A stretch of 64,000 bases of DNA from Bacteroidales bacterium (GTDB lineage: Bacteria; Bacteroidota; Bacteroidia; Bacteroidales; P3), in assembly GCA_017449975.1 (NCBI GenBank), contig JAFSYK010000084.1, positions 1 to 64,000 of the forward strand, in the 5' to 3' direction. Positions 4,070 through 55,700 of this stretch are shown one piece after another. Both the position numbers and the translations under genes were made by a program. The notes beneath the pieces were generated by a model, which was given only the letters and a program-made list of their open reading frames with translations, did no database searches and was not told where the DNA came from. Each line of letters begins with the position of its first letter. Position 1 is the stretch's first letter.

Positions 4070-5266
4070 TTATTCCTGAACGGCTTTGATGCCGGGGAGC
4101 ACCTTGCCTTCGAGGTACTCGAGCATGGCACCACCGCCAGTGGAGACGTAGCTCATCTGGTCGGCGAGACCCATCTGCTTGACGGCAGCCACGCTGTCGC
4201 CACCGCCCACGGCGGCAAAGCAACCCTGCTTGCAGCTCTCTGCCACGCTCTGCGCAATGGCCTTGGTGCCCTTGGCAAAGGTCTCCAGCTCGAAGACACC
4301 GGCGGGACCGTTCCAGAGGATGGTCTTGCTCTGCATGATGATGTCGTGGATGGCTTTGCAGCTCTCGGGACCGCAGTCCATGCTCTCCCAGCCGTCGGGC
4401 ACCTCGCCCGAGGCCACGATCTGCGTGTTGGCGTCGTTGCCGAATTTGTCACCAATGACGCTGTCGACCGGCAGGTAGTATTTCACACCTTTCTCTTTCA
4501 TGCGGCGCATCAGGTCGAGGGCCAGATCCATCTTGTCGTCCTCGCAGATGCTGTTGCCAATCTTGCCACCCATGGCTTTGGTGAAGGTGTAACGCATGCC
4601 GCCGATGATGATCATGTTGTCCACCTTGTCGATGAGGTTCTCCAAGATGCCGATCTTGCTACTCACCTTCGAGCCGCCGATGATGGCGGTGAAGGGACGC
4701 GGTGCGTCGTGCATCAGCTTCTCCAGGTTGCGCACCTCGTTCTCCATCAGGAAACCGAAATACTTGTCATTGGGGAAGAAGCGGGCCACCACCGCCGTCG
4801 AGCAATGCTCGCGGTGTGCGGCACCGAAGGCGTCGTTGACGTAGCAGTCGCCCAGCTTCGACAGCCGTTCGGCAAACTGCACATCACCCTTGGTCTCCTC
4901 GGGATAGAAGCGGATGTTCTCCATCAGCATCACCTCGCCACCTTTCAGGTTCTGTGCCATCTGCTCCACCTCGCCGCTGCCCAGCAGCGCCTGGGTGAAG
5001 TGGACGGGACGACCCACGATGGTCTCCAAATATTTGGCCACAGGCTGCAAGGTGAACTCAGCTTCGAAGCCGCCTTTCTTCGGACGGCCGAAGTGGGCCA
5101 TGATGATGACGGCGGCACCGTCGGCCAGCAGTTTCTCGATGGTGGGCATCGACTCACGGATACGCGTGTCGTCGGTGATCTGCTTCTGGTCGTTCATCGG
5201 GACATTGAAGTCCACACGCAACAAGACCTTGCGTCCTGCAAAATTGATGTCTTTGATACTTTTCAT
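4070..5266 (-). CDS. pgk: Phosphoglycerate kinase
   Basis: Catalyses ADP + 1,3-bisphosphoglycerate = ATP + 3-phosphoglycerate in glycolysis. The 398-residue length is typical for bacteria. Characteristic segments are RVDFNVPM near residue 17 (substrate binding), AHFGRPKKG, MENIRFYPEE, GGSKVSSKIGILENLI, the ATP-site GPAGVFE, and the C-terminal GGGDSVAA glycine-rich loop. The N-terminus (MKSIKDINFAGRKVLLRVDFNVP) aligns with the family start. It lies alone, separated by 205 nt of low-complexity DNA from atpB upstream. Confidence 0.98.
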   Translation of the reverse strand: MKSIKDINFAGRKVLLRVDFNVPMNDQKQITDDTRIRESMPTIEKLLADGAAVIIMAHFGRPKKGGFEAEFTLQPVAKYLETIVGRPVHFTQALLGSGEVEQMAQNLKGGEVMLMENIRFYPEETKGDVQFAERLSKLGDCYVNDAFGAAHREHCSTAVVARFFPNDKYFGFLMENEVRNLEKLMHDAPRPFTAIIGGSKVSSKIGILENLIDKVDNMIIIGGMRYTFTKAMGGKIGNSICEDDKMDLALDLMRRMKEKGVKYYLPVDSVIGDKFGNDANTQIVASGEVPDGWESMDCGPESCKAIHDIIMQSKTILWNGPAGVFELETFAKGTKAIAQSVAESCKQGCFAAVGGGDSVAAVKQMGLADQMSYVSTGGGAMLEYLEGKVLPGIKAVQE

Positions 5267-15454: not shown

Positions 15455-16459
15455 ATGAAGAAGATTGCGGCTTACTTTTTAGTTTTTAGTTTTTACTATT
15501 TACTTTTTCCTGCAAATGGGCTGGCGCAGACGATGACCTCCCACCGGCAGGTGGTGGCCGACGGCTATGACTTCTGGACCTATACCGCTGTCGACACCGC
15601 CAGCGAGCCGCAGCCGCTGATACTCTTTCTGCATGGCGCCAGCCTTTGTGGGAAGAATCTGGAGAGGGTACGTCGCTACGGTCCTTTGCACGCCTTGCAG
15701 ATGGGCTTGGAGATACCTGCCACCATTGTGGCGCCCCAGAATCCGGGTGGCGCCTGGAAACCGGAACGGCTGATGCATGTGCTGGAGTGGGTGAAAGCGC
15801 ATTATCCGGTCGACACCAACCGCATCTATGTCTTTGGCATGAGTCTGGGCGGCTACGGCACCTTCGACTTTGTTGGCACCTATCCCGACAAGGTGGCTGC
15901 CGCCATCGCCATGTGCGGCGGCAGTCAGCTGCGTGACTTCTGCGGGCTGAACGAGGTGCCGCTGTGGATTATCCACGGCACCGCCGACCGACAGGTGCCC
16001 ATCAGCCAGTCGCAACGCATTATCAACGCCATGGAACGTTGTGGCAGCACCAATCGCATGCAATTCACCAAATTGCAGGGTTCCAACCACGGGGCGCCGG
16101 CACGCGCATTCTATCTGTCGTCACCCTACGAATGGCTGCTGTCGCACCGGCTCGACACGCCCTTGCGCCCCATCACGCCAGGCTACAGCATCACCCCCAC
16201 CGACCTGAAGAAAGCCTATAATCATCTTCGACATGGAAGTGGAAACATCAAAATTGAAAAAGGCGACAACAGCCCGATGATGGAACAGGAAGCCTCGGAG
16301 GAGAACACCACGGAGACCACCTATTATACTGTACGCAAAGGTGACACGTTAGAGAAGATTGCCAAACGGCATCACACCACGGTGAGCAAACTCTGCGAAT
16401 TGAACAAAATGCAAAGAACAAGCATCATCCGTCCCGGCCAGAAATTGCAGGTTCGGTAA
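15455..16459 (+). CDS. Secreted alpha/beta-hydrolase (esterase-like) with C-terminal LysM domain
   Basis: A 334-residue exported protein with a signal peptide (residues 1-25, ending NGLAQ). An alpha/beta-hydrolase domain of the phospholipase/carboxylesterase type spans about 40-240, with nucleophile elbow GMSLGG (Ser130), LFLHGASLCG as oxyanion region, an Asp in HGTADRQVP and a His in GSNHGAPA. After a linker, residues about 288-333 form one LysM module (YTVRKGDTLEKIAKRHHTTV, then IIRPGQKLQV), which binds peptidoglycan GlcNAc. The domains suggest a wall-associated esterase, but the substrate is unknown. It lies 49 nt after sppA. Confidence 0.85.
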   Translation: MKKIAAYFLVFSFYYLLFPANGLAQTMTSHRQVVADGYDFWTYTAVDTASEPQPLILFLHGASLCGKNLERVRRYGPLHALQMGLEIPATIVAPQNPGGAWKPERLMHVLEWVKAHYPVDTNRIYVFGMSLGGYGTFDFVGTYPDKVAAAIAMCGGSQLRDFCGLNEVPLWIIHGTADRQVPISQSQRIINAMERCGSTNRMQFTKLQGSNHGAPARAFYLSSPYEWLLSHRLDTPLRPITPGYSITPTDLKKAYNHLRHGSGNIKIEKGDNSPMMEQEASEENTTETTYYTVRKGDTLEKIAKRHHTTVSKLCELNKMQRTSIIRPGQKLQVR

Positions 16460-22163: not shown

Positions 22164-23734
22164 CGGGCCTCGAGTGTCGACCAAGCCTCGCGGCTGTTGT
22201 CGTACACCCGACGCGTATAGTCGTTGAGCAGACGCGAAGTTTTCTTCGTTTTTCCTTTCTCTGCATATTGTCGCACCTCGGCTTCCAGCTCAGGCAGACC
22301 ATCAAAGGCCTGTTGCTGCTGCGACATAATCGAGTCGTTCATCTCTTTCTTGGTGCGCTGCCACGCCAAGGTGGCCAGTTTGTTGGCCCTGCGGTACTGC
22401 CAGACCAAGGCCGTCGGGTCGTAGCCTTTCTGACCACAGAGACCGAAGCTTGCGGGCAGCTCCGTGTTACCGGAAAAGATGGGGATGCGCGGCGACTGAC
22501 CCGGGTTGTCGACCGAGAACCAGCAGACGCCACCCACGGCGTCGGGCAGCCAGCCACGCAGCTGCGCCACCCAGCTGTAGGAACACCAGGCCACACTGAC
22601 CGTGCGGCGGAACTCGACGGCACCGGGATGCAGGTGGTTCAGCGTGTTCTGCATGGCCGTGGTCATCCACGGGTTGGCCAACGGGCTCACCGCCGTGTCC
22701 ATATAGTAGTTGCCGTCAGCCGCTTTGCGACGCACAGGCATCTTTATGTTCTGGCACATATCCATATCGGTACCCTCGTAGGTGCTGCGAAACAGGGCAA
22801 TGACCTGCTCCACCGAGACCGCCGAGTCGGGCTGCACGCTGAAGGGCAGCTCCGCCATGTCGAAGGTGAAGTGCTGCGACGGAGCCAAGGAATTGAAGAT
22901 AAAGTATTCCCGCTCGCGGAAGTTACGACCGTTGGCGTACTCGGGAGCGTAGGCTTTCCAAAACAGGAATTCCCCTTCGCCGTCCCACAAGCCATGCGCA
23001 CGGGCCACCGACTCCACATTATCCGAGCAGAGGAATTCGGCGGGACGGTCACGGTACAGACGGCCGATGCGCGGGATGTTGGCACTGACAGCCACATGAT
23101 GGTCGGGCACACGCTGCGCTACCCACACGCCGCCAATCGTATGCCGGCCGGCACCGATGATCTCCATCTGCCACACTTCGTGCGGGTCGGCGATGGTGAT
23201 ACACTCGCCCCCGTCGCCATAGCCGTATTTGTCGACCAGCGAGCCGATAAGCAGCACCGCCTCGCGTGCCGTGGTGCAGCGCTGCAGCGCCACACGTTGC
23301 AGCTCCTCGATGAGGAACAGCCCCTCGGGGTTGCGCAGCGTGTCGGGTCCGCCAAAGGTGGTCTCCCCTATCGCCAGCTGCTTCTCGTTCATACTGGGAT
23401 AGGCGGTGTTCAGATAGGCATAGGTGTGGCGCACTTGCGGGATGTAGCCGGCGATACGCACACCCGTGGTGTCGTCGCGCGACACGGTGTGGGCCGTGCC
23501 CTTGCGGATGGCCATCGTAGCACCCGCCCTGTGGTCGGCCGCCGGCTCCACAGAGAGCCATGTGCGGTAGCGACCGTCGCAGGTGTGCGAGGTGATGACG
23601 CTGCCGTCCGTCGAGGCACGTTGTCCTACCATGATGGAGGTGCAGGACTGGCCGTCAAAAACCTCCTCCTGGGCAAAGGAAAGCGAGAAGAAAGGTAAAA
23701 GGTAAAAACTAAAAACGAGAAGGCGATGGAACAT
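22133..23734 (-). CDS. C69 family dipeptidase
   Basis: A 533-residue exported Ntn-type dipeptidase (PepD/U34 family). A signal peptide (residues 1-21) is followed by the conserved start of the mature domain with nucleophile Cys31 (GQSCTSIMVG). Family motifs follow: GETTFGGPDTL, ATTREAV-like CTTAREAVLLIGSLVDKYGY, and GECITIADPHEVWQMEIIG. It cleaves dipeptides in the periplasm or outside the cell. It is convergent with the GntR gene, with 31 nt shared by the 3' ends. Confidence 0.93.
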   Translation of the reverse strand: MFHRLLVFSFYLLPFFSLSFAQEEVFDGQSCTSIMVGQRASTDGSVITSHTCDGRYRTWLSVEPAADHRAGATMAIRKGTAHTVSRDDTTGVRIAGYIPQVRHTYAYLNTAYPSMNEKQLAIGETTFGGPDTLRNPEGLFLIEELQRVALQRCTTAREAVLLIGSLVDKYGYGDGGECITIADPHEVWQMEIIGAGRHTIGGVWVAQRVPDHHVAVSANIPRIGRLYRDRPAEFLCSDNVESVARAHGLWDGEGEFLFWKAYAPEYANGRNFREREYFIFNSLAPSQHFTFDMAELPFSVQPDSAVSVEQVIALFRSTYEGTDMDMCQNIKMPVRRKAADGNYYMDTAVSPLANPWMTTAMQNTLNHLHPGAVEFRRTVSVAWCSYSWVAQLRGWLPDAVGGVCWFSVDNPGQSPRIPIFSGNTELPASFGLCGQKGYDPTALVWQYRRANKLATLAWQRTKKEMNDSIMSQQQQAFDGLPELEAEVRQYAEKGKTKKTSRLLNDYTRRVYDNSREAWSTLEARYWQMFGLGF

Positions 23735-23744
23735 AGGATGGATG

Positions 23745-23886
23745 GTTTAAGGGTTTAAGGGTTGGAGGGGTTTAAGAGGTTTAAGAGGTTTAAGGGGTTT
23801 GATGGGGTTATGGGGCTAATTGGACTAATGGGACTAATTGGGCTAATAAGACTAATTGGACTAATTGGACTAATTAGGCTAATTGG
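23745..23886. repeat. GGACTAATT and GGTTTAAGG tandem repeats
   Basis: The spacer upstream of the C69 gene contains about six GGTTTAAG(A/G)-type units (23750-23805) and about eight GGACTAATT-type nonamers (23813-23886). The nonamers overlap the 3' end of the M20 gene and encode its last residues. Confidence 0.75.
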
Positions 23887-25076
23887 ATTTCTTTGGCGAA
23901 GTTGTAGAGGAGGTTGGCGGTGGGTTCGATGATTTCGTCGGGAAAGTCGTAGTCGGGGTGGTGCAGCTCGACATGGTTTTCGCCGGCGCCGATGCCCAGC
24001 AGCGCGCCAGGGTAATGGACAAGGTAGTTGGAAAAGTCTTCGGACCAGCGGAAGGGCTGCGGCAGATGGGTGACGTGTCGCTGCTCGCGTTCGGCTATGG
24101 CCTGCAGCTGGGCGACGACGTGGGGTGTGTTCTCTGTGGCACGGAAGGGCTCCACCAGTTCGTGACACTCCTGTAGGCCATAGCGCTGCGCCACCTCAGC
24201 CACCAAGCCGTGGGCATCGTCGAGCAGCCGCTGCATGGTGTCGTTGGTGAAAGCACGCAGGGTAAACATCACTTCAGCGTCGCCCGCCGAGGTGCCGAAG
24301 GCAGGCTGTCCCAGCCGGATGGCGATGAGAGTGGACTGCTTGAATGCTTGATTGCCGGATTGCTTGAATGCTTGATTACTTGGATTGTTGAACTGATGCA
24401 TCCGCTGGACGATTTCCGCAACAGCCAGTCCCGGGTTGAGTCCGAGCTCGGGGGTCGAGGCGTGGGTGGGACGACCCGTCAAGCGATACACCACTCCGGA
24501 CGAGGCGGCAGCGAAGGTGCTATTGCTGAGCAGCACCTGGTTCAGCGGATAGTCCGGTATGTTGTGTACCGCCAGGATGCAACGGATGTCGTAGTGCTGC
24601 AGCACCCCGCTGTCGATGATTTTCTGCGCGCCGAGTCCCGTTTCCTCCTCGGGCTGGAAAATCAAGACAACGCCGCGGTGGGACAGCCGCTGTTGTGAGA
24701 GCAGCTGCGCGAGGCGCAGCAGTGTGGCGGTGTGGCCGTCGTGGCCGCAGCGGTGGCCGATGGGCAGCGCGTCGATGTCGGCGCGGAGGGCGATTGCTTG
24801 ATTGCTTGAATGCTTGATTGCTTGATTGCTTGAATGCTTGATTGCTTGATTGCTTGATTGCTTGATTGCTTGAATGCTTGATTGCTTGAATGCTTGATTG
24901 CTTGATTGCTTGAATTGTTGAGTGGCGAAGTAGGCCACGACGCCGTAGCCGCCGACGTGGGTGTGCAGCGCGTCGGGCGAGAGGGACTGCAGCTGTTCGA
25001 CGATGCGGTCGTGGGCATAGTGCTCATCGCCCGAGACGCCGGGATGGTTGTGGAGATCTTTTCGAAGAGAGGACAC
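23874..25076 (-). CDS. M20 family amidohydrolase with in-frame octamer-repeat insert
   Basis: A 400-residue metal-dependent amidohydrolase of the N-acyl-amino-acid/hippurate hydrolase group. The N-terminus has LRKDLHNHPGVSGDE, the metal site is GHRCGHDGHTATLL (residues about 107-120), and EEETGLGAQKII and the C-terminal SEDFSNY are also present. Between VVAYFAT and ALRADIDALP, where relatives have a short loop, residues about 53-95 are a repeat of the KQSSNQAI type encoded by 15 octamers. A second, shorter repeat is in the dimerisation domain (NQAFKQSGNQAFKQS). The reading frame is open in this sequence. The natural substrate is unknown. Confidence 0.9.
   Translation of the reverse strand: MSSLRKDLHNHPGVSGDEHYAHDRIVEQLQSLSPDALHTHVGGYGVVAYFATQQFKQSSNQAFKQSSIQAIKQSSNQAIKHSSNQAIKHSSNQAIALRADIDALPIGHRCGHDGHTATLLRLAQLLSQQRLSHRGVVLIFQPEEETGLGAQKIIDSGVLQHYDIRCILAVHNIPDYPLNQVLLSNSTFAAASSGVVYRLTGRPTHASTPELGLNPGLAVAEIVQRMHQFNNPSNQAFKQSGNQAFKQSTLIAIRLGQPAFGTSAGDAEVMFTLRAFTNDTMQRLLDDAHGLVAEVAQRYGLQECHELVEPFRATENTPHVVAQLQAIAEREQRHVTHLPQPFRWSEDFSNYLVHYPGALLGIGAGENHVELHHPDYDFPDEIIEPTANLLYNFAKEIQLA
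24334..24381. repeat. Intragenic octamer repeat, six units
   Basis: Six degenerate octamers (GACTGCTT, GAATGCTT, GATTGCCG, GATTGCTT, GAATGCTT, GATTACTT) lie in frame in the M20 gene, within its dimerisation domain. Confidence 0.85.
24792..24919. repeat. Intragenic octanucleotide repeat, 15 units plus one degenerate
   Basis: Fifteen consecutive GATTGCTT or GAATGCTT octamers (24792-24911) plus GAATTGTT lie inside the M20 gene. On the coding strand three octamers encode eight residues (KQSSNQAI). Gain or loss of one unit would shift the frame, and of three units would keep it. Confidence 0.97.
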
Positions 25077-25083
25077 GGGAGTG

Positions 25084-25146
25084 CGTTATTGAGTTAGTGG
25101 GGAACTATGGGGCTAATTGGACCAATTGGACTAATTGGACCGATGG
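25084..25146. repeat. GGACTAATT nonamer repeats
   Basis: The 54-nt spacer between the M20 gene and the murD2-like gene consists of GGGGCTAATT, GGACCAATT and GGACTAATT units that run into the last codons of the latter. Confidence 0.65.
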
Positions 25147-26522
25147 GGCAAATATGTTTTCACCAACTGGCAGAAGGTTTCGCCGCGGTGTTCGAAGTTT
25201 TTGAAGGCGTCGTAGGAGGCGGCAGCGGGCGAAAGGAGACAGACACCGCCGGCGGGGGTGTGACGAAAGCACCAGTCGACCAGCGTCGGGTAGTCGTCGC
25301 AGAGAAAAGTGTTGAATTGTTGAGTTGTTGAATTGTTGAATTGTTGTTTTTGTTTGGTGTTGAGGAGCTTGGAGATCCGGTGGCCAGCGGCGCCGACAAA
25401 GACGATGTTGCGCAAGGCGGTGTCGGCAGCCAGGAAGGAGACCAGCGGGCTGTAGTCGATGCCGCGGTCGAAGCCGCCGAGGATGAGGGTGTCGACACGT
25501 GGTAGCGCCTTCAGCGCGGCGACGGTGGCTTCGGGGATGGTGGAGATACTGTCGTTGTAGAAGGTGACGCCGCCATAGGTACCCACGCGTTGCAGGCGGT
25601 GCGGCAAAGCCTCGAAGGTGGCGACGGCGGCGGCACAGTCGGCATCGCTGACGCCGAGACGGCGGGCCACCTGACGGGCGACATAGATATTGCTCCGGTT
25701 GTGGGCGCCCACGAGGTTCGACGGCCAGCGCGCGGAGTCGTCGGCCGAGACATCGTCGGCGGAGTAGGCACAGACCTCGGCGGGGAGGACGGGTCGCAGC
25801 TCGGCGACCCGCGCCGCGAGATCGGGCGAGTCGGCACAATAGAAGCAGAGGTCGCCCGGCTGCTGGCGCAACATGAGCTGCATCTTGGCCATCTGGTAGT
25901 CGAGATAGGAGTCGTAGTGGTCGAGGTGTTCCTGGTAGAGGTTGAGTAGCACGCCGATATGGGGTGCGCGACGGATGCCCTGCAGCTGGTGACAGGAGAG
26001 TTCAGCCACGATGAGGGTATCGGCGTCGATTTGCGGAATGATGTCGAACAGGGGGATGCCCATGTTGCCCGCAAGGAGGACCGAGAATTGCTTGATTGCT
26101 TGATTGCTTGATTGCTTGAGTTGAAAGTTATTCTGTAGGGGCAAATCACCATTTGAGAATTGCTTGATTGCTTGATTGCTTGATTGCTTGAGGATGTGGG
26201 CGATGAGGGCGGCGGTGGTGCTTTTGCCTTTGGTGCCGGTGACACCGATGGTCTGGGGGGCGTAGCGCTGGAGGAAGAGGTCGGTCTGCGAGGTGATATG
26301 CTCTTCGTCGACATAGGGACGCAGGCGCGACAGCGGGATGCCGGGCGACTTGACGACCCAGTCGAAGGCCGGCCCTTGCTGCAAGAGAGCGACCATCTCG
26401 TTGTCGTCGTGGGCGACGGTCACCTCGCAATGGGGACAATGGCGGTCGAGAAAACGATGGGTGCTCTGCCCTTCCCGACCGTAGCCGGCGATGAGGATTC
26501 GGGAATTGGATAGGTCTTTCAT
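25131..26522 (-). CDS. murD2: Mur ligase, probable MurD2 (UDP-MurNAc-L-Ala:L-Glu ligase)
   Basis: A 463-residue Mur ligase of the MurD family. It has a Rossmann-like N-terminus (ILIAGYGREGQSTHRFL), the ATP P-loop GVTGTKGKSTT (93-103), a central-domain ELSCHQL motif, and AHNRSNIYVARQVARRLGV linking to the C-terminal domain (LILGGFDRGIDY). MurL lies directly upstream in the same direction; in Xanthomonas the MurL partner MurD2 adds L-Glu rather than D-Glu, so MurD2 is preferred over MurD. Just after the P-loop helix, residues about 112-147 are repeat-encoded (KQSSNQAIKQ twice), and a third repeat near residues 395-407 gives QKQQFNNSTTQQF. Confidence 0.85.
   Translation of the reverse strand: MKDLSNSRILIAGYGREGQSTHRFLDRHCPHCEVTVAHDDNEMVALLQQGPAFDWVVKSPGIPLSRLRPYVDEEHITSQTDLFLQRYAPQTIGVTGTKGKSTTAALIAHILKQSSNQAIKQFSNGDLPLQNNFQLKQSSNQAIKQFSVLLAGNMGIPLFDIIPQIDADTLIVAELSCHQLQGIRRAPHIGVLLNLYQEHLDHYDSYLDYQMAKMQLMLRQQPGDLCFYCADSPDLAARVAELRPVLPAEVCAYSADDVSADDSARWPSNLVGAHNRSNIYVARQVARRLGVSDADCAAAVATFEALPHRLQRVGTYGGVTFYNDSISTIPEATVAALKALPRVDTLILGGFDRGIDYSPLVSFLAADTALRNIVFVGAAGHRISKLLNTKQKQQFNNSTTQQFNTFLCDDYPTLVDWCFRHTPAGGVCLLSPAAASYDAFKNFEHRGETFCQLVKTYLPHRSN
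25312..25346. repeat. Intragenic TTGAATTG octamers in murD2
   Basis: Four octamers of the TTGA(A/G)TTG type, followed by TTG, lie in frame in the C-terminal domain of the Mur ligase and encode a Gln/Asn/Ser-rich loop. Confidence 0.85.
26086..26189. repeat. Composite intragenic repeat in murD2
   Basis: Four (A/G)ATTGCTT octamers at 26086-26117 and four at 26158-26189 flank a 40-nt segment that contains TGTAGGGGCAAATCACC, a relative of the GTAGGGGCGTAC spacer element. The whole remains in frame within the Mur ligase. Confidence 0.9.
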
Positions 26523-26527
26523 TGGGG

Positions 26528-26605
26528 GGGGACTAGATTTTCTAGATTGGCTAGATTTTCTAGATTAACTAGATTTTCTAGATTGGCTAGATTATTCTAG
26601 ATTTT
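26528..26605. repeat. TCTAGATT tandem repeats
   Basis: About eight units of the CTAGATTTT / CTAGATTGG type fill the spacer between the MurL and MurD2 genes and overlap the last codons of murL. The same family recurs at 58981-59045. Confidence 0.8.
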
Positions 26606-28019
26606 TTAGGAAATTTTGGGTGGCGGTGGTGAGGGCGGCGGTGAGGGTGTTGGTCAGCTTGTCGCTGAGGAAATGGTCGGGGGCGAAGGTGGCGAGCAGC
26701 GCAGCGGCCTCGGACGGAGCAGGCAGCGGAATGTCGGTGTCGAGCAACGGCGGCAGCGGTGCCGACCGATACCAGCGGTGACGGGTGAGCGACAAGGCGG
26801 CACGCACCTCCTGGACGGTGCCCACACACTCGAAGGGTTTGGCGTCGGTGCAGCCCGCCAGCTCCTGCAGCAGCGGCAGCATAGAACTGTCGGACAGCAG
26901 ATTGCGCCCAAAGATGGCGGCCAGTCTTTGCGGCTCGATGAAGGGCGACAGGATGATGAAGGCGAAGAGACACTTGGCACAGTGGCCACACCAGATGTCC
27001 TGCTTGCTGCCCACATTGCAGCTGCGGAAGATGTCGAAATAGCGCTCCGTGCGGGCGAAGAGCAGCGCTATCTGCAGCTCGCAGAGCGGACGCAGGAGGC
27101 TGAAATAGTTGTAGCCGCCCAGATAGGCGTCCACGTAGTTGCGGAAGTCGCGCTCGAACTCCACAGATTTGGAATACTGGTGGTTGACGGCGGTGCCGGC
27201 AACGGTGCTCTCGTTGGCGCTGTTCTCGTTGGAGAGGGCGATGGAGGGGATGCCCGAGAGCTGTGCCGCCAAGAGGGAGTAGAAGGCCAGCAGGGCGCTG
27301 AAGGGGGTGTGACCGTTGAGGGCACCTTGACTGTTGAGCTGCAGCATGGTAGGGTCGAGGGTACGCTGGATGACCAGTGTGTCGTCGACGCCGAAGCCGG
27401 CAGCCGCTGCACAGTTGGTGGTGGCACCCCGCGGATTGAGAATCAACGGTCGGATGTCGGCGCCCGAAGAGCGCAACAGCTCGAGCGACACCACCGAATC
27501 CTTGCCGCCACCGATGGGGAGGAGAAAGGAATTTGTTAAATTGAGACTTGAGAATTGAGAATTGAGAATTGAGCTTGTAGGGGCATAATCCCGTGTACTC
27601 CCACTGACTATTGTCATGAAATCGGATTCGGAGACGCTTAAACCGTTGGTGTAGAAGAATTCGCCTAATCCGTAGTAATACAGTTTTTTCCAGAACGCTA
27701 TCTGCTGTGCGTCCAGCGCACCGCAACGGACAGACACCGTGGGCGGACAGAAGCATTTCCAGTAGCTGACCAGCTCGGCCATGCCGATATGGAAGACCAG
27801 CGCGTCGAGGGTGGCGGCCTCCTGATTGAACGAGAGGAACGAGCGCGTGGGGACAAATGCCGTGGGGGCAAAGGTGACGGGATGCCTGCCACTGCGGTCC
27901 TCGACACGGAAAGAAAAAGCGATGTGCAACCCATCGGGTCGCACATCATATTGATAACTATCGTAGACAAAGGTCGGGTAGGTCTGGCGATAGGTGTTAT
28001 ACGTTTTCTGTCGGTTCAT
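26592..28019 (-). CDS. murL: UDP-MurNAc-L-Ala-L-Glu epimerase
   Basis: A 475-residue protein matching the MurL epimerase, which inverts the terminal L-Glu of UDP-MurNAc-L-Ala-L-Glu to D-Glu using ATP and Mg2+. It has a PP-loop-like nucleotide motif GGGKDS (170-175), then NGHTPFSALLAFYSLLAA, LSNENSANE, VNHQYSKS, CNVGSKQDIWCGHCAKCLFA with its Cys cluster, and KPFECVGTVQEVR near the end, all in family order. Residues about 141-162, just before the PP-loop, are encoded by repeat DNA (ILNSQFSSLN). The companion Mur ligase is 69 nt downstream, forming the alternative D-Glu route to peptidoglycan. The call is from motif recall, not alignment. Confidence 0.85.
   Translation of the reverse strand: MNRQKTYNTYRQTYPTFVYDSYQYDVRPDGLHIAFSFRVEDRSGRHPVTFAPTAFVPTRSFLSFNQEAATLDALVFHIGMAELVSYWKCFCPPTVSVRCGALDAQQIAFWKKLYYYGLGEFFYTNGLSVSESDFMTIVSGSTRDYAPTSSILNSQFSSLNLTNSFLLPIGGGKDSVVSLELLRSSGADIRPLILNPRGATTNCAAAAGFGVDDTLVIQRTLDPTMLQLNSQGALNGHTPFSALLAFYSLLAAQLSGIPSIALSNENSANESTVAGTAVNHQYSKSVEFERDFRNYVDAYLGGYNYFSLLRPLCELQIALLFARTERYFDIFRSCNVGSKQDIWCGHCAKCLFAFIILSPFIEPQRLAAIFGRNLLSDSSMLPLLQELAGCTDAKPFECVGTVQEVRAALSLTRHRWYRSAPLPPLLDTDIPLPAPSEAAALLATFAPDHFLSDKLTNTLTAALTTATQNFLKNLE
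27540..27603. repeat. Intragenic heptamer and GTAGGGGC element in murL
   Basis: TTGAGAA heptamers (about four, 27541-27572) are followed by TTGTAGGGGCATAATCCCGT, a member of the GTAGGGGCGTAC family. Both are translated in frame within murL immediately before the PP-loop. Confidence 0.85.
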
Positions 28020-40489: not shown

Positions 40490-41587
40490 CTATTGTTCAG
40501 ATTGGGGTTGTTGCTGGCTGAGACAATGGAAGCTGCCCAGACCCCAGACGATGTCGGTAGAATCGATGCCCACTACCTCGCGGTCGGGGAAAAGTGCCTC
40601 GAGAATATAGGCCGCCTCGTTGTCAGTAAGACAGCGATAGGTGGGGAAAATAACCTTGTTGTTGGCCAGATAGAAGTTGGCATAGCTGGCCGGCAGTCGC
40701 TGGTTGTCGTAGAAAACCATATCGGGCATGGGCAACTCGACCACGTTGAGCTGCTTACCCGAAGCCAGACGCGCTTTCTTCAACGCCTTCAAGTTTTGCT
40801 GCAGCGGCTCGTAGTTCTCATCCCACATATCCTCTTCAACGGCCGTCACCACCGTGTCGGGCGACACGAAGCGGGTCAGGTCGTCGACGTGACCATCGGT
40901 GTCGTCGCCGGCGATGCCGTCACCCAGCCAGATGACGTTGTCCACCCCATAGTAGTCGCAGAGGTACTGCTCGATCTGCTGCTGGTTGAGCTGCGGGTTA
41001 CGATTCGGGTTGAGCAGACAGGAGGTCGTGGTCAGCAGGTCGCCACAGCCGTTGACATCGATGCTGCCCCCCTCCATAACGATGCCCGGCTCAAACAATG
41101 AGAGTGCTTGATTGTTTGATTGTTTGATTGCTTGAGTACTTATTGCGTCAGCATTCAAGCATTCATAAATGCGCAGAGGTATCTGGGTGTCGAGTTCATA
41201 GGGGTATTTGCCACCCCAGGCGTTGTGGTTCCAGTTGACGATGGCCTGACGCTTTCCGTCACGGTTAAGCAGGAAAGCGGGACCGTGGTCGCGACACCAG
41301 GCGTCGTTGGTGGGGAACTGATGGAAGAAGACACGCTGCATATTGGCATCCATACTTTCCAACGCTTCGGCGACACGCTGCTGCATGGCGGCATCGAGGA
41401 CATTGATATGGACATCCTCCACTTCGGCCAACTCTTTGATGAAGAGATGGTATGAGGGAAAGATGGTCTCAATCTTTCCCGGCCAAGAGTCTTCGTTGTG
41501 GGGATAGCTGAGCCAGGTGGCTGCATGAGTCGCCCATTCAGCGGGCATATAAAAACCTTGTTCTTTCGGGGTCATTTCAATTTTCAC
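40490..41587 (-). CDS. aguA: Agmatine deiminase
   Basis: Converts agmatine to N-carbamoylputrescine. It is 365 residues with MPAEWATHAATWLSYPHNED, the catalytic region TNDAWCRDHGP, VMEGGSIDVNG, DTDGHVDD and the nucleophile Cys355 in GSFHCLSQQQP. Residues about 150-163 (DAISTQAIKQSNNQAL) are encoded by an octamer repeat that sits just before the conserved EGGSIDVNG motif. It is 10 nt downstream of aguB; together they make putrescine from agmatine. Confidence 0.97.
   Translation of the reverse strand: MKIEMTPKEQGFYMPAEWATHAATWLSYPHNEDSWPGKIETIFPSYHLFIKELAEVEDVHINVLDAAMQQRVAEALESMDANMQRVFFHQFPTNDAWCRDHGPAFLLNRDGKRQAIVNWNHNAWGGKYPYELDTQIPLRIYECLNADAISTQAIKQSNNQALSLFEPGIVMEGGSIDVNGCGDLLTTTSCLLNPNRNPQLNQQQIEQYLCDYYGVDNVIWLGDGIAGDDTDGHVDDLTRFVSPDTVVTAVEEDMWDENYEPLQQNLKALKKARLASGKQLNVVELPMPDMVFYDNQRLPASYANFYLANNKVIFPTYRCLTDNEAAYILEALFPDREVVGIDSTDIVWGLGSFHCLSQQQPQSEQ
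41102..41141. repeat. Intragenic octamer repeat in aguA, five units
   Basis: Five octamers (GAGTGCTT, GATTGTTT twice, GATTGCTT, GAGTACTT) lie in frame in aguA, followed by a related inverted piece, ATTCAAGCATTC, at 41153-41164. Confidence 0.9.
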
Positions 41588-46075: not shown

Positions 46076-47278
46076 CTATTCGACTTCCAGCAGCAGTCCT
46101 TTCAGGTATTCTCCTTCGGGGTGATGTATGCTAACGGGATGATCCATGGCGTGGGGCAGCTGACGGACGATGCGCACACGACGGTGGGCATTCATCGCTG
46201 CCGTGAACACCATGGTCTGGAAGTCCTCTTTGCTGACGGCCTGACTGCAGCTGAAAGTCATCAGCAGTCCACCGGACGGCAACGCCTCCAATGCCCGCTG
46301 ATTGATAGAACGATAGCCTTTCAGTCCCTGCTGCAGTGAACGGTGGTTCTTGGCAAAGGCCGGAGGGTCGAGGATAATAAAATCGAATGCTTGATTGCTT
46401 GATTGCTTAATTGTCTGAATGTATTGCAACACATCAGCGGCAGTGCCACTATGATTGCTGCAACCCGGGAAATTCAGCTCCACGTTGCGGTTGCAGAGTT
46501 CAATGGCTTTCTTGCTGATGTCGACCGTCTCCACATATTCGGCACCGCCACGCAATGCCGCCAGCGAGAAACCGCCGGTATAGCCGAAGCAGTTGAGGAG
46601 ACGATGTCCGCCAGCCAGCTCCTGCACCAAAGCTCGATTTTCGCGTTGGTCGACGAAGAAGCCCGTCTTCTGACCCTCGTAGAAGTTGATGAGCATCTTG
46701 ACACCATTCTCGACGATGTCATGCTCCTGGGGCTCGATACCCCAGCGGTAGCCATCCTGACAGCCCCCTGGCACCGTGGCACTGCTCTTGTCGAAGACCG
46801 CCAGCAGGCGGTCGCCGAGCAGTTCGCGGAAGATCTCAACGAACAGGTCAAACATGCGGTGCATACCCACCGAATGAGCTTGCATCACCAACACCCCGTT
46901 GTACCAATCGCACACCAACCCCGGCAGATAGTCGCCCTCGGCATGAACCAGACGAAACACATTGGTGGTCTGCGGGAGTGCCGAGTGGCAATAATCGAAG
47001 AATCCCAGTTGTTCGCGATAACGGATAGCCGAAGCCAGCCGTTCGCGGAAGAAGGCGTCATCCACATTCGGCGTGTCAAAACTCAGCACCTTGCAGATAA
47101 TGCTCTCGTTCTGGTAGTGCCCTGTGGCCATCCACTCTCCGTGGTTGTCGACGACATCCACCAGTTCACCCTCCTGCGGATCGCCATCGATACGCTTCAC
47201 CGCACCCGAGAATATCCAAGGGTGACGACGCAAGATGGCTTTCTCTTTGCCCGGAGCTATGATAAGACGAGAACGCAT
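46076..47278 (-). CDS. rlmI: Class I SAM-dependent rRNA methyltransferase, RlmI-like
   Basis: A 400-residue methyltransferase with an N-terminal PUA domain (IIAPGKEKAILRRHPWIFSG), a middle region EGQKTGFFVDQRENRA, and the Rossmann SAM domain (LLNCFGYTGGFSLAALRGGA, FIILDPPAFAKNH, FSCSQAVSKE), as in 23S rRNA m5C1962 methyltransferase. The residues TIKQSSNQAF just before the FIILDPP motif come from three octamer repeats. The ATG at 47278 is preferred; an in-frame GTG six bases upstream is possible. It is 7 nt downstream of rpe. Confidence 0.93.
   Translation of the reverse strand: MRSRLIIAPGKEKAILRRHPWIFSGAVKRIDGDPQEGELVDVVDNHGEWMATGHYQNESIICKVLSFDTPNVDDAFFRERLASAIRYREQLGFFDYCHSALPQTTNVFRLVHAEGDYLPGLVCDWYNGVLVMQAHSVGMHRMFDLFVEIFRELLGDRLLAVFDKSSATVPGGCQDGYRWGIEPQEHDIVENGVKMLINFYEGQKTGFFVDQRENRALVQELAGGHRLLNCFGYTGGFSLAALRGGAEYVETVDISKKAIELCNRNVELNFPGCSNHSGTAADVLQYIQTIKQSSNQAFDFIILDPPAFAKNHRSLQQGLKGYRSINQRALEALPSGGLLMTFSCSQAVSKEDFQTMVFTAAMNAHRRVRIVRQLPHAMDHPVSIHHPEGEYLKGLLLEVE
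46385..46408. repeat. Intragenic octamer repeat in the rlmI-like gene, three units
   Basis: GAATGCTT, GATTGCTT and GATTGCTT lie in frame directly before the FIILDPPAF catalytic motif region. Confidence 0.85.
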
Positions 47279-54425: not shown

Positions 54426-54662
54426 CTTCGTTCAAAAAATTGCAATACTTGAATTATTTCAAATTTCAAAGATACAACCTTTTTTGCATTCTCTATTTGT
54501 CGTTCTTGAAATTGCCTGCCGCATAGCGATGAATGTTCGTGCCACCAATACACTCATCTGTATGGCGCTGGGACTATGCAACACTGTGAAGAGCAGAGTT
54601 GCTTAGTCGTTACTAAATAAATTTCATCGATCAGATTTCGAAAACCTCCAATATTTTATCGT
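54426..54662. other. AT-rich spacer without recognised features
   Basis: About 240 nt between the terminator and the 60-bp repeats. I see no gene, RNA or clear regulatory site in it. Confidence 0.5.
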
Positions 54663-54722
54663 GAACACGAATCTATCGAATCTAACAAATTAAGATTCGT
54701 GTTATTCATGCAATTCGTGTTC
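54663..54722. repeat. 60-bp repeat, copy 1
   Basis: Begins GAACACGAATCTATCGAATC and ends ATTCGTGTTC, so the ends are inverted repeats. It differs from copy 2 (54764-54823) at only a few positions. Confidence 0.9.
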
Positions 54723-54763
54723 GAATAAGACGAATAAGTGGTAGCGGTGATAGGTAAAATTTT

Positions 54764-54823
54764 GAACACGAATCTATCGAATCTGACAAATCAATATTCG
54801 TGTAATTCGTGCAATTCGTGTTC
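54764..54823. repeat. 60-bp repeat, copy 2
   Basis: The second copy of the GAACACGAAT...ATTCGTGTTC element, exactly 101 bp after copy 1 and ending 20 bp before the 3' end of the HTH gene. Confidence 0.9.
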
Positions 54824-54843
54824 AAATATATTGGTGTTTGCCT

Positions 54844-55502: not shown

Positions 55503-55700
55503 GAACCCCACACTGCGTACTTACGGACTTGTGCGGGGTTACAGAGATCCGTCCTCTCCGAGGCCAACCACATGAGGCACCAAAGCCCCAAAGGGGGCTG
55601 ACTCTCAACAACCCCGCACGCAGTGTGGGGCCAAGCAGTCAAATGGTGACAGCCCCAGAGGGGCTGACTCTCAATAACCCCGCACGCAGTGTGGGGGTGC
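55503..55700. repeat. CCCCGCAC hairpin repeats
   Basis: Two near-identical 46-47-bp units (55584-55630 and 55651-55696) each contain AGCCCC-GGGGCT hairpin arms and then AACCCCGCACGCAGTGTGGG. A third, partial palindromic copy is at 55504-55541. They fill the yfcC to HTH spacer and may act as terminators for yfcC. Confidence 0.85.

Follow-up and report, generated by a model that had tools for sequence, protein, structure and literature searches.

An octamer array in an M20 amidohydrolase gene as a probable member of a genus-wide class of short tandem repeats

Introduction

A gene for an M20-family amidohydrolase from a Bacteroidales bacterium contains a long run of octanucleotide units within its coding sequence. 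It lies in the window, by which we mean the whole stretch of 64,000 nucleotides of DNA that was analyzed. Tandem repeats whose unit is not divisible by three can shift the reading frame of a gene when units are gained or lost, and the original prediction, made from the sequence alone, was of a possible phase-variable locus, with a protein loop that tolerates in-frame changes as the alternative. This raises the question of whether the array acts as a switch for one enzyme, or whether it represents something more general in the genomes of this group of bacteria.

The M20 gene and its octamer array

The product of the array-containing gene belongs to the M20 family by both sequence profile and fold. 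Profile searches matched it to Peptidase_M20 of Pfam (PF01546, E 9.5e-22) and, above the cut-off, to the NCBIfam amidohydrolase profile TIGR01891, and the closest solved fold is that of YxeP (PDB 1ysj; TM 0.74/0.82, 21% identity). Among named records the closest match is from ‘bacterium P3’ (62%; Candidatus Hemicellulosilyticus sp. P3, Bacteroidales, at NCBI), and the remaining matches are largely to rumen and gut Bacteroidales bins. The gene reads from a GTG start to a TAA stop, and its surroundings are as follows.

23744..23887, no strand assigned: two 9-nt arrays between the M20 gene and a C69 peptidase gene, the second of which extends over the M20 stop codon (Tandem Repeats Finder, ORF list)
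23874..25076, minus strand: M20-family amidohydrolase gene, 400 aa, host of the array (ORF list, PF01546, TIGR01891)
24333..24392, minus strand: second octamer array in the M20 gene, degenerate, in another loop (linker 2) (Tandem Repeats Finder, linker alignment, pLDDT)
24792..24911, minus strand: octamer array, 15 units GA(T/A)TGCTT, coding strand AAGCA(A/T)TC, codons 56-95 (Tandem Repeats Finder and unit-by-unit reading)

Tandem Repeats Finder describes the main array as period 8 with 15.2 copies and 92% matches at 24792-24913. Reading it unit by unit gives 11 copies of GATTGCTT and four of GAATGCTT, uninterrupted over 24792-24911, and a degenerate 16th unit (GAATTGTT, 24912-24919). The 15 uninterrupted, in-frame octamers on which the original prediction was built are therefore confirmed, and on the sequence they could disrupt the gene: a change of one unit would lead to a stop codon 42 or 89 codons downstream of the array. 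The coding strand of the array is open in all three frames, and the other strand has 4-5 stops per frame. The encoded sequence, KQSSNQAF...SSNQAI, stands directly ahead of ALRADIDALP. An AlphaFold model of the protein (30 sequences) has a mean pLDDT of 85.9, and its segments of at least three residues under pLDDT 50 are residues 74-89, inside the first array, and 234-239, inside the array at 24333-24392. On this model, the main array codes for a 40-residue insert that is predicted to be partly disordered and to sit in a turn between two strands. No inverted match of at least 9 nt to the array was found within 300 nt of it.

Other features of the window include a cobalamin riboswitch at 1370-1587 on the minus strand (RF00174, 94.1 bits), which is its sole Rfam match, and two pairs of direct repeats, one of 66 nt at 54662-54828 that is quasi-palindrome-like, and one of 44 nt at 55587-55696 that ends in CCCCGCACGCAGTGTGGGG.

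A class of arrays with short periods

Tandem Repeats Finder returned 78 overlapping rows across the 64-kb window. For counting, exact arrays were defined as at least 2.5 units and at least 18 nt with periods of 1-12, and the source genome was sampled as the window plus 20 stretches, of which 10 were picked for octamer matches, three lie on the same contigs and seven were unselected, a choice that biases densities. This 407.5 kb contains 97 exact arrays, with periods of 7 (41), 8 (35), 9 (16), 12 (4), and 6 (1), and none with periods of 1-5, 10, or 11; one first-order Markov resample of the same 407.5 kb contained no such array. The sample includes 50 distinct units, with the unit of the M20 array, AAGCAATC, present in 14 arrays. 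The units are A+T-rich within a genome of 55% GC.

Ten genomes of the same genus (744 kb) show a similar range, with periods of 7 (65), 8 (23), and 11 (13), and others of 6 (2), 9 (1), 10 (1), 12 (1), and 14 (3); the same-genus DNA comprises 40 stretches, 12 picked for the octamer, 14 for matches to M20 or M20-like genes and 14 unselected, so that densities are biased here too. The genome G016 is array-poor, with a single 6-nt array. Ten genomes from other families contain three arrays in total in 275 kb. The class is thus one of tandem periods almost only of 7-9 nt, with 11 nt also in relatives, and it extends across the genus.

Individual words are distributed in a patchy manner. The octamer, in three exact copies, was matched in 18 of 121 genomes of the genus, the source among them, compared with 0 of 121 for a reversed control; a draw of 148 further genomes from the order yielded none. 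Three copies of the heptamer AATTCTC are present in 16 of 295 genomes of the order, again including the source, and its reversed control matches 8 of 295, at up to 42 places in one genome; these control matches suggest that other lineages have arrays built of other words. The features typical of heptamer-class repeats, namely units of the 7-nt class, many dispersed arrays per genome, and a patchy distribution, are all present.

Arrays inside genes

Genes were called with a simple hexamer script and cover 74-92% of the DNA. Among exact arrays with periods of 7-11, 84 lie wholly in genes and 93 between genes, with 18 at gene edges left out of the count. Those in genes have periods of 7 (53), 8 (30), and 9 (1), and those between genes 7 (41), 8 (25), 9 (15), 10 (1), and 11 (11), the last being all of the exact period-11 arrays in the gene-call sample. 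Periods of 9-11 therefore make up 1 of 84 arrays in genes and 27 of 93 between genes (Fisher p 1e-7). Period 9, which is frame-neutral, is included in this difference (1/84 compared with 15/93), a result not predicted by selection for frame. Orientation also differs between the strands: the coding strand is stop-free in 73 of the 84 in-gene arrays, and where only one strand is stop-free (69 arrays), it is the coding strand in 62.

Host genes in the source genome that score above the NCBIfam cut-off are murD, leuS, murF, purL, and polA, and further hosts are a murC/mpl-like gene (below cut-off) and MATE, MBOAT, patatin, DsbD, and glycosyltransferase genes. Loss of murD, leuS, polA, purL, or murF is expected to be lethal or costly, and the arrays are thus not confined to genes that could safely be switched. 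Arrays and hosts in the window, in addition to those of the M20 gene, include the following.

15472..15508, plus strand: heptamer array (AGTTTTT) coding for part of the hydrophobic N-terminus of a 334-aa protein (Tandem Repeats Finder)
25131..26522, minus strand: murD (UDP-N-acetylmuramoyl-L-alanine--D-glutamate ligase), with three arrays (TIGR01087, 265.9 bits, cut-off 211.95)
25310..25346, minus strand: octamer array (TTGAATTG type) in murD linker 2, where other species have other arrays (Tandem Repeats Finder, linker alignments)
26087..26119, minus strand: octamer array in murD linker 1, second in the reading direction, with the same unit as the array at 26159..26191 (Tandem Repeats Finder, linker alignment)
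26159..26191, minus strand: octamer array in murD linker 1, first in the reading direction (Tandem Repeats Finder, linker alignment)
26533..26609, no strand assigned: 9-nt array (CTAGATTTT) at the gap that separates murD from the 475-aa gene (Tandem Repeats Finder)
26592..28019, minus strand: 475-aa gene without a Pfam match at E 0.001 (Pfam search, homologue alignment)
27539..27573, minus strand: heptamer array (AATTGAG) at site A of the 475-aa gene (Tandem Repeats Finder, homologue alignment)
41108..41135, minus strand: octamer array in a PAD_porph family gene at 40493-41548 (Tandem Repeats Finder, host-gene profile)
46388..46413, minus strand: octamer array in a SAM methyltransferase gene at 46079-47278 (Tandem Repeats Finder, host-gene profile)

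The two arrays of murD linker 1 are divided by a spacer containing TGTAGGGGC. Sequence of this type is found both there (26120-26158) and beside the heptamers of the 475-aa gene (27574-27595), and is perhaps another dispersed element. Heptamers of AGTTTTT encode part of hydrophobic, signal-peptide-like N-termini in three predicted proteins (window 15472-15508 and near 23702; L142 18877-18896), for example MKKIAAYFLVFSFYYLLF; three of 15 AGTTTTT sites are within the first 25 codons. In G014, octamer arrays spread over about 200 nt of a MutS-like ORF (L161 17829-19448, G014:C1), and a MutS-like match in contig 21 of G000, the source genome (G000:C21:32209-33117), has three internal stops.

Reading frame among homologous genes

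The frame of array-bearing genes was compared between species, using one genome per species. In the M20 gene, linkers could be measured in 95 of 103 rows, the other eight being without a flank. The linker at the first array is a multiple of three in all 95 (78 are of 33 nt or less and 17 are longer), as is the second linker in all 95, so that there is no out-of-frame (OFF) M20 allele at either site. Variation in multiples of three alone, the outcome that the original prediction named as counting against it, is thus what the M20 linkers show between species. Eight loci (L032, L033, L034, L047, L052, L057, L062, and L066) have M20 linkers of an identical length, 54 nt, in which different words form an octamer-like pattern. 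In three others (L051, L079, and L087) an unrelated G+C-rich palindromic element occupies the array point, and L069 has another at linker 2.

Other genes give a closely similar picture. The MurD linkers are in frame in 30/30 and 29/29 of the numbered genomes and in 77/77 and 77/78 of the contig-locus set, which amounts to 107/107 for linker 1 and 106/107 for linker 2 over these two overlapping sets. Homologues of the 475-aa gene, which have arrays and palindromic inserts at two linkers, are in frame at both sites in 74 of 74. When arrays were masked and called genes used as queries, all 45 in-gene arrays with a homologue on both sides proved to be in frame; the other 30 of the 75 merged in-gene arrays were without a homologue on both sides, as were 93 other merged arrays. 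The homologue counts are not fully independent of one another, as several loci of the two collections are the same genome (for example, L052 and L112). Matches with internal stops were seen in G009 and G029, and in G001 and G013, and long ORFs in L115, L275, and L284.

Reuse of sites and a frame-broken murD

Arrays of several different 7- and 8-nt units are found at MurD linker 2, in 11 of 29 rows above threshold in the first set (L279 is just below) and in 26 of 78 rows in the second. The units vary and include TTTTCAA, TTTCACC, TTTCCAC, TTCTCAA, CTCCTCA, CAGCCACT, and CACACATT, among others, and the linker measures 36-45 nt outside G000 and 72 nt in G000. On a tree of the first MurD set, the presence of an array needs at least two changes, with G000 apart from the other eleven, and at least two origins are therefore required. 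The M20 and MurD loops each hold differing arrays in differing species.

The only frame-broken linker that was found, one of 78 second linkers in its set and one of 107 over both sets, is in murD of L085. This locus is 93.8% identical to L094 over 10.4 kb. In L094, linker 2 is GAAGAACTTTCCACTTGCCACTTGCCACTTTCCACTTTAATAGAG, of 45 nt and in frame; in L085 it is 38 nt (about 4750-4818), one 7-nt unit short and out of frame, so that murD stops at the array and its C-terminal part runs on in another frame. Slippage may have disrupted an essential gene in the cells that were sequenced, or one unit may have been lost in assembly, as described for the repeats of Borgs (PMC9879509). This is the best evidence here for a single-unit change in coding arrays.

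Change between close relatives and inverted partners

Other arrays also differ by exactly 7 nt between L085 and L094. The expectation of the original prediction that coding arrays change copy number is thus borne out by whole-unit differences between relatives, one of which breaks the murD frame unless assembly lost the unit; among the M20 linkers compared, no allele is out of frame. Four close pairs have 30 indel clusters inside called genes, of which 25 are net multiples of three; the other five are the murD array and four clusters no more than a dozen codons from the end of a gene. In one of these four, an array that extends across the M20 stop differs by 7 nt and the protein is unchanged. 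The M20 loop that in L085 contains (AATGAAG)n, a core, and an inverted array has another heptamer and another core in L094. A comparison of L061 with L069 shows octamer or heptamer arrays within two inserts, of 27 and 69 nt, and three heptamers near a third insert of 21 nt. No target duplication was seen by eye in the alignments of close pairs.

Many arrays are accompanied by an inverted copy of themselves. An inverted match to the array itself, at least 10 nt long and no more than 90 nt away, accompanies 99 of 633 periodic segments (periods of 7, 8, 9, and 11 nt, from 141 stretches), compared with 5 of 633 when the flanks of a random other array are used. Direct matches in the same test number 49, compared with 6 in the control. 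Inverted partners are most frequent at a period of 11 nt (41/92), followed by 7 nt (44/340), 8 nt (10/109), and 9 nt (4/92). Period-11 arrays often pair with their inverted copies as long hairpins, such as those at L181 4158-4240, L182 10004-10088, and L047 1388-1468, among others. By script, 47 non-redundant composites of period 7 or 8 were collected, of which one is a masked-run artefact and a few are weak or have period 11; 19 composites lie in the sampled genome stretches, six in genes, three at edges, and 10 between genes.

Site A of the 475-aa gene shows an inverse match of at least 10 nt between its two halves in 8 of 74 rows, compared with 1.0% when halves are swapped between species, and 66 of 74 rows have no inverted match of 10 nt. 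From the sequences, the arms at this site tend to stay complementary while the unit changes, which is what template switching across a hairpin would produce. Palindromic in-frame inserts in protein genes are therefore seen for part of the class. The M20 array itself is without an inverted partner. A consensus shared by copies, of the kind known from Rickettsia-type elements, is not apparent, as the arms and most cores differ. One core, GGCTGNCGCRGNCA, was read from some composites and has 35 matches in 13 genomes, compared with 8 for its reversed control; in its strict form it occurs twice in the source genome and three times in a 2 Mb sample, all beside arrays (three being few). As a single hairpin core that would define an element, it is suggestive and too rare.

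Discussion

These observations make it likely, in our judgment, that the M20 octamers belong to a large class of short-period arrays that arise and turn over across the genomes of this genus of rumen-type Bacteroidales. Replication slippage would allow arrays to grow, shrink, and become uniform, and template switching, in which a strand is copied onto its neighbor through a hairpin, would give rise to the form of array, core, and inverted array. Selection would then keep arrays in tolerant loops, in frame and stop-free, by removal of frame-shifted variants. The M20 array resembles an insert that its protein loop can tolerate more than it does an on/off switch. Of the two proposals in the original prediction, it is the loop that tolerates in-frame change that fits the evidence best.

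Different models can be set against this account. An on/off switch in the M20 gene is unlikely, given that all M20 alleles compared are in frame and that the same arrays also lie in genes for which switching off is not an option. In its full form, as a contingency locus at which slipped-strand mispairing by single octamers switches the enzyme off and on to the benefit of the population, we hold phase variation to be distinctly improbable. The array does share with contingency loci an in-frame coding tandem repeat with a unit not divisible by three, a one-unit shift would bring in the downstream stops described above, and the sister pair in which murD has lost a 7-nt unit, with 7-nt differences in other arrays, indicates that such steps may happen. 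However, the M20 linkers at the array site and all of the testable in-gene arrays are in frame, the 54-nt length is shared by eight loci, and the sole broken case affects murD, an essential gene for which switching would be senseless, and may reflect assembly collapse. What stands of the predicted phase-variable locus is the ability of the array to shift the frame; its on/off function is weakened by the frame of all 95 M20 linkers and by the same arrays in murD, leuS, polA, purL, and murF. Selection of another kind could also be envisaged, in which arrays are recurrently favored for the flexible linkers, surface loops, or hydrophobic segments that they encode. The coincidence of array-coded stretches with low-confidence loops in the M20 model and the N-termini formed in part by AGTTTTT heptamers in three predicted proteins are consistent with such a use, but most relatives manage without it (78 of 95 M20 linkers are of 33 nt or less), and slightly more arrays lie between genes (93) than in them (84) although genes cover most of the DNA. 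This explanation has, in our view, little chance of being the main one.

A mobile palindromic element is somewhat more plausible, and still doubtful. Units of array, core, and inverted array would be copied to new sites in the manner of Rickettsia palindromic elements or REPs, with single arrays of the M20 type as half elements or remnants. Inverted pairing far above its control, the 47 composites, some with cores of the GGCTGNCGCRGNCA kind, the unlike composites in the same M20 loop of L085 and L094, and the other palindromic repeats that occupy M20 loops all point in this direction. Against it, the arms differ from copy to copy, the strict core is rare, with two in the source genome, and no target duplication was evident by eye. 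A REP/RAYT (Y1) transposase was considered as the driver and rejected: the family (PF01797) is present in G000 and missing in G014, which has 28 exact octamer matches, and in G019, which has five, and there is no correlation with octamer counts. That the arrays are artefacts of metagenome bins is hardly credible. Most of the records are metagenome assemblies, in which units can be lost, and L085 murD may be such a case; nevertheless, arrays appear in a large number of separate assemblies, where the frame is nearly always kept and relatives differ in an orderly way, and the M20 array, at 120 nt, is below common read lengths. For the class as a whole an artefact is already contradicted.

Several findings do not sit easily with the account based on slippage, template switching, and selection. 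A frame-broken coding array exists in L085 murD, selection for frame does not predict the near absence of 9-nt arrays in genes, and the M20 array has no inverted partner. Furthermore, slippage alone does not account for the recurrence of AAGCAATC at many unrelated loci in a minority of genomes. Loops of at least 7 nt escape mismatch repair, which acts on shorter ones, and this would explain the lower limit of the periods. Loss of MutS1 as a cause was rejected, as MutS1 is above cut-off in G000 and in 39 of 41 genomes, and G021, a member of the genus without MutS1, is not array-rich (6.2 per 100 kb). A telomerase-like, template-driven source was set aside because of the 50 different units in the sample from one genome. 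It is conceivable, if speculative, that arrays with 7-11-nt units and their inverted copies are continually seeded over the chromosome in this genus, in essential genes as well, by an unusual replication-linked process or by a hairpin-cored mobile element that changes its arms at every site, and that the lineage thereby gains new disordered protein loops and even hydrophobic N-termini.

If the account of slippage, template switching, and selection holds, phase variation should not be read from a tandem repeat merely because its unit length is no multiple of three: such repeats are common here in murD, leuS, polA, and purL, with the frame nearly always kept. The genus would provide a natural experiment on the birth, inverted copying, and absorption into protein loops of 7-11-nt repeats. 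The period class is narrow, at 7-11 nt with hardly any arrays of 6 nt and none below, and on the same account the reason why bacteria favor 7-nt repeats would become testable by comparing closely related genomes. Whether slippage disrupts essential genes in nature could be asked at the murD gene of L085.

Comparison with known systems

Palindromic inserts that are kept in frame inside protein genes are familiar from the Rickettsia palindromic elements, which form recognizable sequence families. In the arrays described here it is mainly the architecture that is common, and the arms differ between copies. Inverted repeats in coding genes with the protein kept are also described for nematomorph mitochondria, where both arms code for conserved protein regions (PMC6649704), whereas here the inserts are of short tandem units.

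There is also a likeness with heptamer repeats in bacteria, in which satellite families derived from heptamers and hexamers occur (PMC6749651). TAACTGA repeats are found in cyanobacteria, Beggiatoaceae, and some Bacteroidetes; like the arrays here they have 7-nt units at many loci and are patchy between genomes, and two Cyanothece strains differ mostly by 7-nt steps (PMC4679880). In BOGUAY, 11 ORFs contain stop-free ‘reverse’ repeats. Most of these ORFs encode short hypothetical proteins, and in those with an assigned function the repeat is, with one exception, peripheral (PMC4679880). These heptamers are a single studied unit and mostly intergenic near start codons; here there are many 7-9-nt units, dense in housekeeping genes, in internal loops and with inverted partners. 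Heptamers are also over-represented in bacteria, and the idea that a polymerase footprint favors a length of 7 nt is relayed in the same work (PMC4692102). The GGGAATC arrays of Xanthomonas are G-rich, quadruplex-forming, and described as intergenic (PMC4692102), in contrast with the A+T-rich arrays in coding DNA here.

The tandem repeats of Borgs are similar in that recent arrays lie both between genes and in ORFs, often code for disordered segments, and are rarely conserved between relatives; their unit counts vary within a population, and assemblers drop units (PMC9879509). In the cases considered, Borg units are 18-36 nt, in archaeal extrachromosomal elements (PMC9879509), compared with 7-8 nt in bacterial contigs here, and in contrast to Borg units the frame is kept here only by the total length of the array. 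Phase-variable contingency loci likewise have coding tandem units whose slippage shifts the frame, and the genes concerned are often non-essential (PMC11868660); the hosts here include genes held to be essential, with one broken allele among 107 MurD second linkers and none in M20. Among the titles and abstract openings returned by searches of open-license papers, none describes such arrays in genes of rumen Bacteroidales, and there is no occurrence of the strings KQSSNQAI, SSNQAIKQ, or NSQFSIL in the literature searched. Bacterial heptamer arrays (PMC4679880, PMC4692102), array-coded disorder in Borgs (PMC9879509), and coding palindromes (PMC6649704) are already in print, and what we take to be new is the density of the arrays in essential genes, the limits of their periods, their inverted pairing, and the reuse of sites.
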